Below, piece after piece: positions 42,786-47,647 of a stretch of DNA of 64,000 nucleotides. The stretch lies in contig AP019701.1 of assembly GCA_006738865.1 (NCBI GenBank), positions 4,847,974-4,911,973 of the forward strand, given 5' to 3'. The stretch is from Allostella sp. ATCC 35155. Its GTDB lineage: Bacteria; Pseudomonadota; Alphaproteobacteria; ATCC43930; Allostellaceae. Position 1 is the first letter of the stretch. Every line of letters starts with the position of its first letter. Under the pieces are notes generated by a model, which worked only from the letters and a program-made list of their open reading frames with translations, was not told the origin of the DNA and did not search any database. The translations under genes were made by a program, and so were the position numbers.

Positions 42786-43688
42786 TCCATGCCGGCGACC
42801 CTGCCACCGGGCGCAAGCGTCTTCGACCGTACGGCCGTGCGTCGCCATCGCGATCGCGCCGCCGACCACTTCGACCGGCACGATTTCCTGTTCGCCGAGA
42901 TCGCCGCACGCCTTGCCGACCGGCTGGGCGACCTGCGTCGGATGTTCGATCGCATCCTCGACCTCGGCGCCCGCGGCGGCGTCATGGCCCGCGCGCTGGC
43001 CGGCCGCGGCGGCAATCCGTTCATCGTCCATGCCGACCTGTCCGAGCGCCAGGTTCGCGGCCTGCCGCGGGCGGTCGTGGCCGACATCGAGGCGCTGCCC
43101 TTCGCCGGCGGCTTCGACCTGGCGCTGAGCTGCCTCGACCTCCACTGGGTCAACGACCTGCCGGGCGCACTGGTCCAGGTGCGGCGGGCGCTGCGCCCCG
43201 ACGGGCTGTTCCTCGGGGCCTTCCTCGGCGGCGACACGCTGACGGAGCTGCGCGAGGCCTGGCTCGCCGCCGAGATCGAGATCGAGGGCGGCGCCGGCCC
43301 GCGCGTCTCCCCCTTCGCGGACGGCCGCGACGCGGGAGCGCTGCTGCAGCGGGCCGGCTTCGCCCTGCCGGTCGTCGACACCGACCGCATCACCGTCACC
43401 TATGGCGACCCGATCCGGCTGATGCACGACTTGCGCGGCATGGGCGAGACCAATGCGGTCGTGCTGCGCCGACGCGGCGGCACCCGGCGCGGCACCCTGC
43501 TGCGCGCAGCCGAACTCTATGCCGAGCGCTTCGCCGACGGCGAGGGACGCATCCGTGCCACCTTCGAGGTGATCACGATGACGGGCTGGGCCCCCCATGC
43601 CGTCCAGCAGCGCCCGCTGAAGCCGGGCAGCGCCGCCATGCGCCTGGCCGACGCGCTCGCCGCCGACACCCCGCGCGGTGCCGGCTGA
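42768..43688 (+). CDS. class I SAM-dependent methyltransferase (BioC/NDUFAF5-like)
   Basis: The 306-aa protein has a methyltransferase core (FDRILDLGARGGVMARAL, ADIEALPFAGGFDLALSCLDLHWVNDLPGALVQVRRALRPDGLFLGAFLGGDTLTELR). The sequence resembles BioC and the mitochondrial complex I assembly factor NDUFAF5, both common in alphaproteobacteria. The target is undetermined. ATG at 42768 is preferred over an upstream ATG at 42732 that would overlap comF. No Shine-Dalgarno is present. It ends 2 bases before the convergent ABC-F gene. Confidence 0.85.
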   Translation: MASSTQSMPATLPPGASVFDRTAVRRHRDRAADHFDRHDFLFAEIAARLADRLGDLRRMFDRILDLGARGGVMARALAGRGGNPFIVHADLSERQVRGLPRAVVADIEALPFAGGFDLALSCLDLHWVNDLPGALVQVRRALRPDGLFLGAFLGGDTLTELREAWLAAEIEIEGGAGPRVSPFADGRDAGALLQRAGFALPVVDTDRITVTYGDPIRLMHDLRGMGETNAVVLRRRGGTRRGTLLRAAELYAERFADGEGRIRATFEVITMTGWAPHAVQQRPLKPGSAAMRLADALAADTPRGAG

Positions 43689-43690
43689 AC

Positions 43691-45190
43691 TCAGCCGTCG
43701 TCCGAGGGCGGTTCGTCCAGTTCCACCAGCCGACCCCGCTCGATCCGCAGCCAGCGGCTGCCGATCGCGGCGACGAAGCTGCGATCGTGGGAGACGACGA
43801 GGGCCGTCGCCCCCTGGGCCAGGATCTCCGTCTCGAGCTGCTCGCGCCCCGGTATGTCGAGATGGTTCGTAGGCTCGTCCAGCACGAAGAAGTTCGGTTC
43901 CGCCAGCCGCAGCGCCAGCAGCCCGAGCCGTGCCCGCTGGCCGGGCGACAGCCGCCCGACCGGCTGACGCTGGCGATCGACCGGGAAGCCGGCACCGGCC
44001 AGCAGGCTGGTGATCCGCTGGTCGCCGAGCCGGGAGGTCGCGGCCAGCAGGTCGTGCGGTGAACCGCCGCCGTCGAGCTGCGACATCTGCTGATCGAGAT
44101 ACCCGAGCACGACCGACGGCTGGACGCGCAAACCCGCGGCGGCCTCTCCGCCGGCCGCGCGACGAACCAGCGCCACGAACTGCGACTTCCCGGCACCGTT
44201 GGGGCCGAGCAGCACCGCCCGGTCGCCCTGGCGCAGCTCCAGCTTGCCGGTGCGGAAGAGCGCACGCCCGTCGGGAGCGCGGACCGTCACATCGTCGGCC
44301 GCCAGCAGCACCCTGGCATGGGTATCCCGGCTGGCGAGCCGGATGTCCGCCGCCCGCAGCCGCTCGGGCGGGCGCAGGCTCCGCTCCAGCGCGTCGGCCC
44401 GCGCTGCCATCTGCATCGACTTCTTCTGGGCCGCATCGCTGCGGCTGTTGATGCCGACATTGCGTAGCTCCCCGGCGCTGCGCCGCAGGCGGGCCACCTC
44501 CCGCGCGTCCCGATCGAGGCGGGCCGCGGCCGCCGCATCGTCATCGGCCAACAGGCGCCGCGCCGTGCCGTAGGGATGGGCATAGAGCCGCGAATCCTCC
44601 GGCCGCAGGAAGAGCGTGCGGTTCGTCACCCGGTCGAGGAAGCGGCGGTCGTGGCTGGCGACGACCATCGGCACGCCGCGCAGCGGACTGGTGAGCCAGT
44701 CTTCGAGCAGGCGGATCTTCGCCAGGTCGAGATGGTTGGTCGGCTCGTCGAGCAGCAGCAGCTCGGGGTCGGCGATCCAGGCGCGCGCGAGGAGCGCGAA
44801 GCGCTGCCAGCCGCCGCTGAGGGTGCGTACCGGCTGCGTGCGCAGTTCGGCCGGAGTCGCGAACTCGTCGAGCACGAGGTCGACCCGCCATGCCGTCGCA
44901 GCCCGCTCGGGGGCCGGTATGGCACGACGCACGGCCTCCTCGAGCGAGAGGTCGAGCAGGGAAGACGGCATGTCCTGCTCGACCAGGGCGACGCGCAGGC
45001 CGCGCGATCGCACGATCTGGCCCGCGGTGGGTTCGCCGGCGCCGGCCATGCAGCGCAGCAGGGTGGACTTGCCCCCGCCATTGCCTGCGACGAGGCCGAC
45101 CCGGTCGCCGCCGGCGATCACGAGGTCGAGGTTGCGGAAGAGCGGGGTGGCGCCGGCGATGGTGACGGCGCGCAGGCTGATCTGGCCCAT
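43691..45190 (-). CDS. ABC-F family ATPase
   Basis: The 499-aa soluble protein has two ABC domains and no membrane segments. Walker A1 GNGGGKST is at residues 36-43, with LSGGWQRFALLARAW and LLLLDEPTNHLD. The second set is GPNGAGKSQ, LSPGQRARLGLLAL and VLDEPTNHLD. The linker is basic (RSAGELRNVGINSRSDAAQKKSMQMAARADALE), as in ribosome-acting ABC-F proteins. Some relatives give antibiotic resistance by ribosome protection; others are housekeeping. ATG at 45190 follows another ATG six bases upstream that could also be used. The gene has its own promoter, a 26-codon leader ORF and a structured leader, suggesting induced expression. Confidence 0.9.
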   Translation of the reverse strand: MGQISLRAVTIAGATPLFRNLDLVIAGGDRVGLVAGNGGGKSTLLRCMAGAGEPTAGQIVRSRGLRVALVEQDMPSSLLDLSLEEAVRRAIPAPERAATAWRVDLVLDEFATPAELRTQPVRTLSGGWQRFALLARAWIADPELLLLDEPTNHLDLAKIRLLEDWLTSPLRGVPMVVASHDRRFLDRVTNRTLFLRPEDSRLYAHPYGTARRLLADDDAAAAARLDRDAREVARLRRSAGELRNVGINSRSDAAQKKSMQMAARADALERSLRPPERLRAADIRLASRDTHARVLLAADDVTVRAPDGRALFRTGKLELRQGDRAVLLGPNGAGKSQFVALVRRAAGGEAAAGLRVQPSVVLGYLDQQMSQLDGGGSPHDLLAATSRLGDQRITSLLAGAGFPVDRQRQPVGRLSPGQRARLGLLALRLAEPNFFVLDEPTNHLDIPGREQLETEILAQGATALVVSHDRSFVAAIGSRWLRIERGRLVELDEPPSDDG

Positions 45191-45196
45191 GGGCAT

Positions 45197-45278
45197 CTCG
45201 CGAAGCGGGACCGCGGCGCAGGGCGGCGGTCCGGTTTCAGGTCGTGTCGAGACGCGGAGCGGCCCTGCAATTCGCGAG
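45197..45278 (-). promoter_or_regulatory. leader RNA structure occluding the ABC-F start
   Basis: TTCGCGAG (45271-45278 on plus) and CTCGCGAA (45197-45204) are perfect 8-base complements; the second abuts the upstream ATG at 45196. Within the loop, GGACCGC (45208-45214) and GCGGTCC (45226-45232) form a 7-bp hairpin. When folded, this would bury the ABC-F ribosome-binding region. The GC-rich background makes some such pairing expected by chance. Confidence 0.4.
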
Positions 45279-45327
45279 GGCACTGGCAGCGCGGGCGCGC
45301 CGCCGGGGGCAGACCGATGTCGATTGG

Positions 45328-45383
45328 CGCTGCGGAAGCGCCGCTTCAGCCTCGGGCCAGCCCCGCAACGGAACGCTGCGGGG
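45328..45383 (-). promoter_or_regulatory. alternative pairings in the ABC-F leader
   Basis: CCCCGCAACG (45361-45370) pairs with CGCTGCGGGG (45374-45383), a 10-bp stem with one wobble and a 3-base loop inside the leader ORF. The same arm can instead pair with a second CGCTGCGG copy at 45328-45335, just past the leader stop. GAAGC/GCTTC (45335-45339 and 45343-45347) forms a further stem across the stop codon. This is the layout of an attenuator whose choice depends on ribosome position. Confidence 0.4.
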
Positions 45384-45426
45384 CCCGGACAGGCTGTCGG
45401 GACTGGCGCTGGATGTAGCGGATCAT
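45346..45426 (-). CDS. 26-aa leader peptide upstream of the ABC-F gene
   Basis: ATG at 45426 is preceded by GGGAGGG at 4 bases, one of the strongest ribosome-binding sites in the window. The peptide starts MIRYIQRQSRQPVRAPQR and ends after 26 residues; six of its residues are arginine. The ORF is followed by 155 untranslated bases before the ABC-F start. It has no recognised domain. A regulatory role is inferred from position, strong initiation site and the overlapping RNA stems. Confidence 0.5.
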   Translation of the reverse strand: MIRYIQRQSRQPVRAPQRSVAGLARG

Positions 45427-45462
45427 GCAGCCCTCCCTTCGGCCTGCGGTTGAGACGGGCAT

Positions 45463-45491
45463 CGATTATCCGGCTTCGGCCGTGGATGCAA
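45463..45491 (-). promoter_or_regulatory. candidate promoter of the leader ORF/ABC-F unit
   Basis: TTGCAT (45491-45486) and TAATCG (45468-45463) are 17 bases apart on the minus strand, just after the stop of the GNAT-Nudix gene. Transcription would begin about 30 bases before the leader ATG. Confidence 0.45.
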
Positions 45492-45498
45492 GCGCGAC

Positions 45499-46434
45499 CT
45501 ACAGCAGATCGCGCAGCATCGCGACCAGCGGCTCGTCGGCGGGCGGCATGGGATAGTCGCGAAGCTGGTTGGGGCGGACCCAGGCGAGCCGCTGCCCCTC
45601 CATCGCGGTCGGCGTGCCGCGCCAGTTGCGACAGGCGAAGAGCGGCATCAGGAGATGGAACGTCTCGTAGCGGTGCGAGGCGAAGGTGAGCGGCGCGAGG
45701 CAGCGCTCGGCGGTGTCGATGCCGAGTTCCTCGGCCAGCTCGCGGACCAGCGCTGCCTCCGGCGTCTCGTCCGCATGGACCTTGCCGCCCGGGAACTCCC
45801 ACAGGCCGGCCATCGCCTTGCCGGGCGGGCGCTGGGCGAGCAGGACGCGGCCGTCGGCGTCGATCAGGGCGACCGCCGCCACCAGTAGCGTCGGCAGCGG
45901 CTGCGGCCGTGCGATCTCCAGCCGGATGGTCTCGACCGGAACGCCGCGCAGACGCCCCTGGACGCGCCCGGCCTCCCGCAGTCCCGCCTTCTCCAGCACG
46001 CGTCGGGACGCGACGTTGTCCGGGTGGATCTCGGCGAAGACGAGCTGCGCCTCGGGAAAGCCGAAGGCATGGCGGATGGCGGCGCGCACCGCCTCGGTCG
46101 CGTAGCCCGCCCCCCAATAGGGCCGGCCCAGCCAATAGCCGACCTCGACCTCGCCCGGCCGGTCCGCCTGCTCGAGCCCGATATTGCCGAGGAACGTGCC
46201 GTCGTCGCGGCGGGTGACGGCGAAGACCTCCGCATGCCCGTCGGCGCGGTCGGCGGCGACCTGGGCGATGAAGGCCTCGGCCGCGCCGTCGGGATAGGGG
46301 TGCGGGATGCGCTGGGTGTAGCGCGCCACCTCCCACTCCCCGGCCAGCGCCGCGACCGCCGGGGCGTCGGCGGGCGCGAGCGGGCGGAGGACGAGACGGG
46401 CGGTGGTCAGGACCTCAGCTGCGATAGCTGCCAT
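45499..46434 (-). CDS. GNAT acetyltransferase-Nudix (MutT-like) fusion
   Basis: The 311-aa protein joins an N-terminal GNAT acetyltransferase (residues ~8-175, with [23 protein letters not shown] as the acetyl-CoA loop) to a C-terminal Nudix hydrolase. The Nudix box G217-x5-E223-x7-R231-E-x2-E-E236-x-G is complete. The Nudix half resembles MutT, which removes 8-oxo-dGTP and protects against mutation. The GNAT half resembles ribosomal-protein acetyltransferases (RimJ-like). Its ATG lies inside the end of argJ (20-base overlap), so it is co-translated with argJ. Confidence 0.9.
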
Positions 46435-47647
46435 TGATGTCGATATAGGCGTGGGTCAGATCGCAGGTCCAGACGGTCGCCGAGGCCTTGCCGACGCCGA
46501 CATCGACGTCGATCTCGATCTTGCGGCCGGCCATGTGAGCCGCCACCGGCGCCTCGTCATAGCCGTCGACGCGCTGGCCGTCACGCGCCACCGCGACGCC
46601 GCCCATGGCGATGGCCAGCCGGTCGCGGTCGGCCTTCTCGCCCGACTTGCCGACCGCCATGACGATGCGGCCCCAGTTGGCGTCGCCGGCGGCAATGGCG
46701 GTCTTGACCAGCGGTGAGTTGGCGATGGCGAGGCCGATGCGCCGGGCGGCCTTCGCCGTCGCGGCGCCACCGACCCGGATCTCGACCAGCTTCTCGGCAC
46801 CTTCCCCGTCCTTCACGACGAGATGGGCCATCTCCATCAGGACGCCGTCCAGCGCGCGCCGGAAGCCGGCGAGGCGGCGGTCACCCGCCGTCTCGATGGC
46901 GGGGTTCCCGGCCTTGCCGGTCGCGAACAGCAGCACCGTGTCGCTGGTCGAGGTGTCGCTGTCGACGGTGATGCAGTTGAAGCTGCGGTCCGACCCGCGG
47001 GACAGCAGGGCCTGCATGACATCGGCCGGCAGCGCCGCGTCGGTGAAGACGAAGCCCAGCATCGTCGCCATGTCGGGCGCGATCATGCCCGAGCCCTTGA
47101 TGATGCCGTTGATCGTGACCGTGGTGCCGCCGATGTCGGCGGTGGCCGTCACGCCCTTGGGATATGTGTCGGTGGTCATGATCGCCCGCGCCGCCTCGGC
47201 CCAGCGGTCGGGTTGCAGGTCGGCCGACAGCGTGTCGAGCACGGCCGTGATGCGCTCGGCCGGCAGCGGCTCGCCGATGACGCCGGTCGAGGCGACGAAC
47301 ACTTCGTCGGCCCGGCAGCCGAGGCGGCCGGCGACGCCCTCGGCCGTGATCTCGACCGCCTGCAGGCCGGCCGTGCCGGTGAAGGCGTTGGCGTTGCCGG
47401 CGTTGACGATCAATGCCCGCGCCGAGCCGCCGGGCAGCGACCGCCGGCACCAGTCGACCGGTGCCGACGCCGTCTTGGAGCGGGTGAACACGCCGGCCAC
47501 GGTGGTCCCCGCCGCGAGTTCCGCCAGCATGACGTCGACGCGGCCCGCATATCGCACCCCAGCGGCGATCGTGCCGAGGCGGACACCCGCGATCGGCGGC
47601 AGGTCGGGGAAGCGTTCGGGTGCGAGCGGGGACACCTTGTGGGCCAT
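46415..47647 (-). CDS. argJ: bifunctional glutamate N-acetyltransferase/amino-acid acetyltransferase ArgJ
   Basis: The 410-aa protein catalyses ornithine acetyltransfer and, in many bacteria, N-acetylglutamate synthesis in arginine production. The self-cleavage site is visible: T195 in MATMLGF, the nucleophile released at the new beta-chain N-terminus. Other family segments are [18 protein letters not shown] and the C-terminal [15 protein letters not shown]. It is downstream of a parvulin gene by 41 bases and overlaps the GNAT-Nudix gene. Confidence 0.95.

Follow-up and report, generated by a model that had tools for sequence, protein, structure and literature searches.

The window analysed here is a stretch of 64,000 nucleotides from the genome of Allostella sp. 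ATCC 35155, and all the features described below lie on its minus strand. The main gene of the locus (43691-45190) encodes an ABC-F ATPase of 499 aa, and an additional in-frame ATG is found at 45196. As expected of an ABC-F, the protein presents two ABC_tran stretches and predicted long linker helices (residues 207-249 and 252-272), and its structure model is of moderate quality (pLDDT 75.6, pTM 0.50). The best NCBIfam match is NF000355 (ribosomal-protection-like ABC-F) with 268.5 bits, under the cut-off of 380; no other family was matched at E<=1e-60 by every one of the 11 members scanned. The nearest NCBIfam family of this ABC-F is the ribosomal-protection-like one, and the protein may have a role in resistance. 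Moreover, the clade to which the protein belongs shares the linker-tip motif NIGINSGSDLLxxKxKQL with variants, that of the window being NVGINSRSDAAQKKSMQM. Upstream of the ABC-F region, a 311-aa ORF (45499-46434) encodes a fusion of GNAT acetyltransferase and NUDIX/MutT domains, and the end of this GNAT-NUDIX gene was also seen by eye upstream of the ABC-F gene in both sister genomes.

Ahead of the ABC-F gene, a leader ORF of 26 codons (45346-45426) encodes the peptide MIRYIQRQSRQPVRAPQRSVAGLARG, as read from the sequence and the orthologous leaders. It is preceded by the Shine-Dalgarno (SD) sequence GGGAGGG (45431-45437), located 4 nt from the ATG at 45426, as a previous sequence-only reading had noted. 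The codons R-Q-P-V (45388-45399) are the counterpart of an arrest-like R-G-P-V motif conserved in the alignment of 27 leaders described below. Alignment and fold also define a leader hairpin, H1, formed by a 5' arm (arm 1, 45374-45384), whose GCC codon begins 12 nt after the point where the Gly-equivalent codon begins, and a 3' arm (45360-45370). This is the stem that had been reported inside the ORF, and in the window it has 11 bp including one G-U (45384-45374 / 45370-45360). Arm 2 (GGGGCTGGCC, 45355-45364) overlaps the end of the 3' arm of H1. Arm 3 (GGTCTGCCCC, 45306-45315) has two possible partners, arm 2 and arm 4 (45179-45188), the latter of which corresponds to the first ABC-F codons (GGG..CAGATC) and is its partner in the ribosome-free fold. 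Between arms 2 and 3, a local hairpin (45326-45342) is predicted by folding, its conservation being judged by eye in the sisters. Furthermore, the minimum-energy fold without a ribosome contains a predicted helix over the ABC-F start, with its upstream strand at 45248-45255 and its partner at 45200-45193.

The sequence-only reading had taken a second copy of one stem arm, just after the leader stop, as the alternative partner of the switch. This copy exists (CCGCAGCG at 45335-45328), but it overlaps the local hairpin in the predicted fold and is not the family-wide partner. By eye, the sister species present only near-copies at this site (CCGTAGCG and CCGTCGCG), with which partial pairing is still possible, and the distant members have no second arm copy, which makes it a feature of the genus at best. 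The second copy was rejected as the switch, the family-wide partner being GGTCTGCCCC at 45315-45306. An alternative pairing does exist, but its family-wide form opposes arm 2:arm 3 to arm 3:ABC-F start region.

Concerning the promoter, a -35-like hexamer TTGCAT (45486-45491) and, after a 17-nt spacer, a -10-like hexamer TAATCG (45463-45468) were read from the sequence. They had been described as a good promoter, which is too generous since a generic sigma-70 scan of window positions 43500-46500 found no site. Nevertheless, 20 of the 27 orthologous upstreams contain the form TTGN3-N17-TA, which only 3.8% of shuffles do, ending 29-66 nt before the leader start, and in 23/27 against 10.3% when spacers of 16-18 are allowed. 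This recurrence supports a predicted promoter. The perfect 8-bp helix said to cover the ABC-F start (45278-45271 / 45204-45197) is likewise real, but it is not the family-wide switch and on its own it is not significant, as the 401-nt stretch contains four perfect helices of at least 8 bp (the leader stem included) where base shuffling gives an expectation of 3.1. Folding of the 301-nt leader region gives an energy that is only mildly unusual (z -2.05, for the window alone). Because these window-only statistics (fold z, helix count and sigma-70 scan) are weak, the question was decided by the relatives.

ABC-F orthologues were collected from 61 genomes (that of the window included), a genome collection and plasmids (12 records), and further ones from 385 same-class genomes (20 at E<=1e-110) and from one family (11/23 with E<=1e-150); Rhizobiaceae were not sampled as a whole family. 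The class was taken to be Alphaproteobacteria on the basis of the orthologues that carry names. From their upstream regions 28 were chosen and 27 were used. The one that dropped out, L120, was lost because the pattern required [RHCY]GP while its leader, which reads RQLGPV, has LGP. Also outside the 27 are two near-copies (L119 and L146), two duplicates of the window (L001 and L123) and one upstream cut by a contig end (L149). The leader starts of L127 and L132 and arm 3 of L117 were placed by hand.

The 27 leaders have 15-29 residues, with the Gly of the motif at codon 10-16. The motif residues are found in 23 (R), 26 (G), 26 (P) and 23 (V) of them, the loose form of the motif in 27/27 leaders against 25/2700 shuffles, and the strict form RGPVxA together with an SD in 18/27 real upstreams against 0/2700 shuffles, although the selection of the 27 with a GP/QP/GS pattern inflates the Gly, Pro and motif counts. 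Among 91 other ABC-F upstreams, the strict form with an SD appeared only in L119 and L146, which are near-copies or of the same clade. Changes in the RGPV codons are mainly synonymous, keeping the peptide, with a pN/pS of 0.21 versus 1.05 in the hairpin codons, which are thus free of constraint on the peptide. The window leader, with RQPV, is the sole one of the 27 that has Gln for Gly and represents a natural variant of the motif; the leaders of the sister genomes of the same genus are MIDRIQQHTRGPAAAPQRSVAGLAEGRN and MIAYIQHHSRGPVRAPQRSVAGLASARN. By eye, a G-rich SD lies ahead of 25/27 leaders, the exceptions being L127 and L132. These data describe a leader ORF with a ribosome-binding site, conserved far beyond chance and apparently under selection at the peptide level, as in an erm-type attenuator. 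As a separate observation, two genomes of one genus (L127 and L195) keep RGPV and the hairpin and miss the GGAGG-like SD before the leader.

The conservation of the hairpin within the leader likewise goes far beyond chance. All 27 leaders have GCC as the fourth codon following Gly, at a fixed distance of 12 nt from the Gly codon, and the base of H1 is GCCC/GGGC in all 27. Over nine aligned pairs in the 27 sequences, 98.4% of the cells are paired. Two-sided changes were found in 19 cells versus 5.4 and the covariation was 0.294 versus 0.168, values that none of 500 shuffles reached, while the number of pairs with a two-sided change (4) was ordinary, since it was reached by 59/500 shuffles. When 50-nt pieces are folded singly, the helix often runs beyond GCC or shifts its register slightly, in the window too, and the fixed position given for H1 is based on the GCC codon and the aligned pairs.

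Arm 3, with the consensus GGTCTGCCCT, pairs with the 3' arm of H1 and the bases following it. In the 27 sequences, 91.4% of the arm 2:arm 3 cells are paired, with two-sided changes in 18 cells versus 7.3 and a covariation of 0.261 versus 0.171 (0/500 shuffles each), and with four pairs showing two-sided change, a number reached by 163/500 shuffles; these tests, and the 2:3 comparison of own and swapped arms below, are favoured by the fact that arm 3 was located from its match to arm 2. A test in which arm 3 was not fixed beforehand gave p=5e-5 for arm 2:arm 3. When own arms were compared with swapped arms (centred energies), the own arms were better by 2.0 kcal/mol for 2:3 and by 3.7 kcal/mol for 3:4 (p<=5e-5 each), and arm 3 showed no co-evolution with three control regions (p 0.78, 0.12 and 0.78). 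Using 18 de-duplicated sequences, which removes relatedness only partly, the values were p 0.00025 (2:3) and 5e-5 (3:4). The arm 3:arm 4 helix uses different bases depending on the species, such as GTCTCATC with GATGAGAC in L125 and L114, or TTCTCT..GGTCTG with CAGACCAGAGAA in L032. In the window this helix beats only 1% of shuffles, the mean over the 27 being 82%. These results point to mutually exclusive helices with compensatory changes, another feature of erm-type attenuators. Thus, the check that had been proposed, namely conserved leader codons and compensatory stem changes in relatives, gave a positive outcome for RGPV, for the covarying H1 and for the alternative helix.

The ribosome covers about 15 nt past the first P-site base, and if it halted with Pro in the P site it would extend over roughly six bases of arm 1. 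Constrained folding of the 27 leaders with a ribosome footprint on the G, P or V codon raised the mean predicted 2:3 pairing from 0.055 to 0.43-0.47 and lowered 3:4 from 9.0 to 5.2-5.7 bp, and a footprint at the leader start or stop gave neither 2:3 gain nor 3:4 loss. With the ribosome on Val, 3:4 was lost in 14/27 leaders, gained in 2/27 and little changed in the rest. The mean predicted exposure of the ABC-F start hardly moved (from 0.393 to 0.411-0.419), increasing in 9/27 and decreasing in 6/27 with the ribosome on Val. Regarding the window, arm 3 (45315-45307) pairs with the ABC-F start codons (45188-45179) in the ribosome-free fold and with arm 2 when the ribosome is on Pro; placing Pro in the P site takes 2:3 from 0.00 to 0.77 and 3:4 from 8.5 to 0.1. 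For a ribosome on Val, the best fold of the window lacks the 2:3 helix, and its ABC-F start exposure is 0.26 free versus 0.21-0.27 stalled.

The 5' module is present upstream of most same-class orthologues of the ABC-F gene. It was found in Aminobacter, Rhizobium, Sinorhizobium, Pararhizobium, Shinella and Brucella pseudintermedia, and also in Ketogulonicigenium, Gemmobacter and a Rhodospirillales MAG. In the third other genome of the window's genus (G002) there are only weak ABC-F matches (best 7.6e-47), so the gene seems to be missing from this genome or from its assembly. A covariance model built from the 27 leaders gave 12 strong matches (E<=6.7e-12) in the 385 genomes, all of them before this ABC-F; 11 of the 12 are members of the model and the twelfth (G314) is new and also precedes an ABC-F start. 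In a second family (that of G148) with 36 genomes, the same six hold the module and the gene, on the same strand and 41-127 nt apart, and 30 hold neither; four of the six are new. The five leaders outside the model (G314 and the four of the second family; L195 was translated by eye) all carry RGPV, having been found by a model that was itself built from pattern-chosen leaders.

Other gene targets were considered among the weaker model matches (E 1.2e-4 and up; seven inspected by eye). Five of them (L163, L165, L166, L180 and L182) are ordinary reading frames, and at the other two (L162 and L164) no leader preceding an ABC-F was seen. As no more than eight candidates were scored per genome and seven weak matches were inspected, rare copies before other genes may exist.

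In the ABC-F tree of 43 rows, the leader label needs two changes. By the selection pattern, such a leader was not detected in one genus within the clade, with six ABC-F rows (L122 and L141-L145), nor in L133, which is basal, or in eight rows that lie further away. In the simplest history, the leader was gained once, at the base of a clade of 34 rows, and lost once, in the 6-row genus. The six rows without the leader keep the linker tip of the clade. It should be noted as well that in Rhizobium ruizarguesonis (L037) the end of an apparent second ABC-F gene, about 370-500 nt before the ABC-F start, lies just upstream of the leader, suggesting a tandem.

The alignments show a leader ORF, an RGPV peptide, H1 and an arm 3 that, judging from the sequence comparisons, co-evolves with both arm 2 and the ABC-F start region. 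Considering the conservation of RGPV, the covarying helices and the association with this ABC-F in the relatives, the leader-peptide attenuator suggested by the sequence-only reading gains support and is the best reading of the locus. We consider it likely that the module is a ribosome-mediated attenuator controlling an ABC-F ribosome factor, probably at the translation level. Without a stall, H1 would form and arm 3 would pair with the ABC-F start region, so that translation would be low. A ribosome halting at the RGP-V junction would invade arm 1 and free arm 2, which could then pair with arm 3 and release the ABC-F start. The halt would most likely come from a ligand, either an antibiotic or some other natural product of the soil, in the peptidyl-transferase centre or the exit tunnel, and would then be cleared by the ABC-F. 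With the same arms but RQPV, the window may differ in its sensitivity or have lost it.

The same leader could act on transcription instead, if the leader ribosome exposed or hid a Rho-dependent or intrinsic termination site before the ABC-F gene. The described ABC-F attenuators work by transcription or in a mixed mode, according to the accessible text of PMC10314930 and PMC10201436, and the uORF attenuator of a DUF1127 gene in S. meliloti, presumably dependent on Rho, offers a precedent (PMC12218461, in the text available). However, an intrinsic terminator was not found in window positions 43500-46500, a T-rich stretch between the hairpin and the ABC-F is absent in 20/27 leaders and present in 7/27, and the co-evolution of arm 3 is with the translation start region; we regard control by transcription as rather unlikely. 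A comparably low likelihood is given to RGPV being an intrinsic arrest sequence relieved by the ABC-F itself, where the leader would be a drug-free sensor of ABC-F activity (autoregulation). This would agree with the leader and the ABC-F clade arising together on the tree, with the conserved linker tip of that clade, found in the leaderless genus too, with the strong intrinsic arrest at RGPP in other peptides (accessible text of PMC12992588) and with the suppression by ectopic MsrD of induction via its own leader (accessible text of PMC10314930). Nevertheless, the reported arrest motif has Pro after RGP (RAPP/RGPP), whereas Val follows in 23/27 leaders here, and the SecM P166A variant is counted as arrest-defective in the available part of PMC12992588.

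That the leader ORF is incidental and only the RNA hairpin matters, for instance for mRNA stability or protein binding, seems very improbable. The hairpin is the best conserved RNA element, but the low pN/pS of RGPV (0.21), with synonymous changes and little amino-acid change, the SD kept in 25/27 (by eye) and the fixed spacing from the Gly codon to the hairpin argue against it. Chance features of a G+C-rich intergenic region could account for the perfect 8-bp helices, which are no commoner than in shuffled sequence, but they are contradicted by the conservation, the covariation and the ABC-F association, and the likelihood of this explanation is practically negligible. Finally, RGPV might be a new nascent-chain arrest code, with arrest at the RGP-V junction occurring alone or with a natural ligand and being released by the distinctive tip of the ABC-F, in such a way that the leader gauges ABC-F sufficiency. 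We put this forward as a speculative possibility, more doubtful than probable.

Returning to the attenuator reading, the constant distance from RGPV to the hairpin singles out a predicted stall codon, which makes the stall motif, the inducer and the ABC-F specificity directly testable. In this regard, the available text of PMC10201436 calls for comparing the uORF consensus with inducibility.

Concerning known systems, Rfam covariance models gave no match at the leader in the window or in 7 relatives, and a search of the open-licence PubMed Central literature found no paper on this leader or on RGPV as a leader-peptide motif. In Sinorhizobium meliloti, C-rich codons at the beginning of a uORF bring about the transcription attenuation of a DUF1127 gene, presumably via Rho (PMC12218461, in the text available). 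Like the module proposed here, this is an alphaproteobacterial uORF attenuator, and it responds to a ribosome drug; it differs in its gene and in acting on transcription, and RGPV was not met with in the accessible part of that paper. The nascent-chain arrest peptides RAPP/RGPP and SecM (RAGP) resemble the leader in that the nascent chain containing R-G-P is encoded ahead of a regulated gene, and alphaproteobacterial proteomes are among those analysed, according to the available parts of PMC12992588. Unlike the present leaders of 15-29 residues with Val, the RAPP/RGPP peptides have a second Pro and belong to small proteins often with localization signals, as that text describes them, and its main text, as far as available, does not contain 'RGPV'. 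The RAPP/RGPP motif was rejected for the 27 leaders, in which the second Pro is absent.

An erm-type translation attenuator consists of a short leader ORF and mutually exclusive RNA arms, with the downstream start covered when uninduced. The locus is alike in its short leader ORF and its exclusive arms; its downstream start region is covered in the predicted uninduced fold, with a predicted mean exposure that changes little on stalling. It is unlike in that the downstream gene encodes an ABC-F instead of a methyltransferase and in the presence of RGPV with its Gly at codon 10-16. This type is also described in the accessible text of PMC11264731. A parallel in terms of the gene regulated is given by the antibiotic-resistance ABC-F genes under uORF control, whose leader peptides are MR[I/M] for cplR, MIN for vmlR, MK[L/Q] for vmlR2 and MAGN for lsaA (PMC10201436, in the text available), and MYLIFM for msrD, where half of a hairpin lies under the stalled ribosome (PMC10314930, likewise). 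As given in those texts, these peptides have a consensus of 3-6 residues and are not shared by the RGPV leaders, which have 15-29 residues with an internal motif, and cplR and msrD have an intrinsic terminator, whereas none was found in window positions 43500-46500. Leader-controlled ABC-F genes in the literature found, as far as its text was accessible, are Gram-positive with very short leaders, whereas here one inherited module, whose leader is longer and has an arrest-like motif inside it, extends over several alphaproteobacterial families, including rhizobial plasmids.
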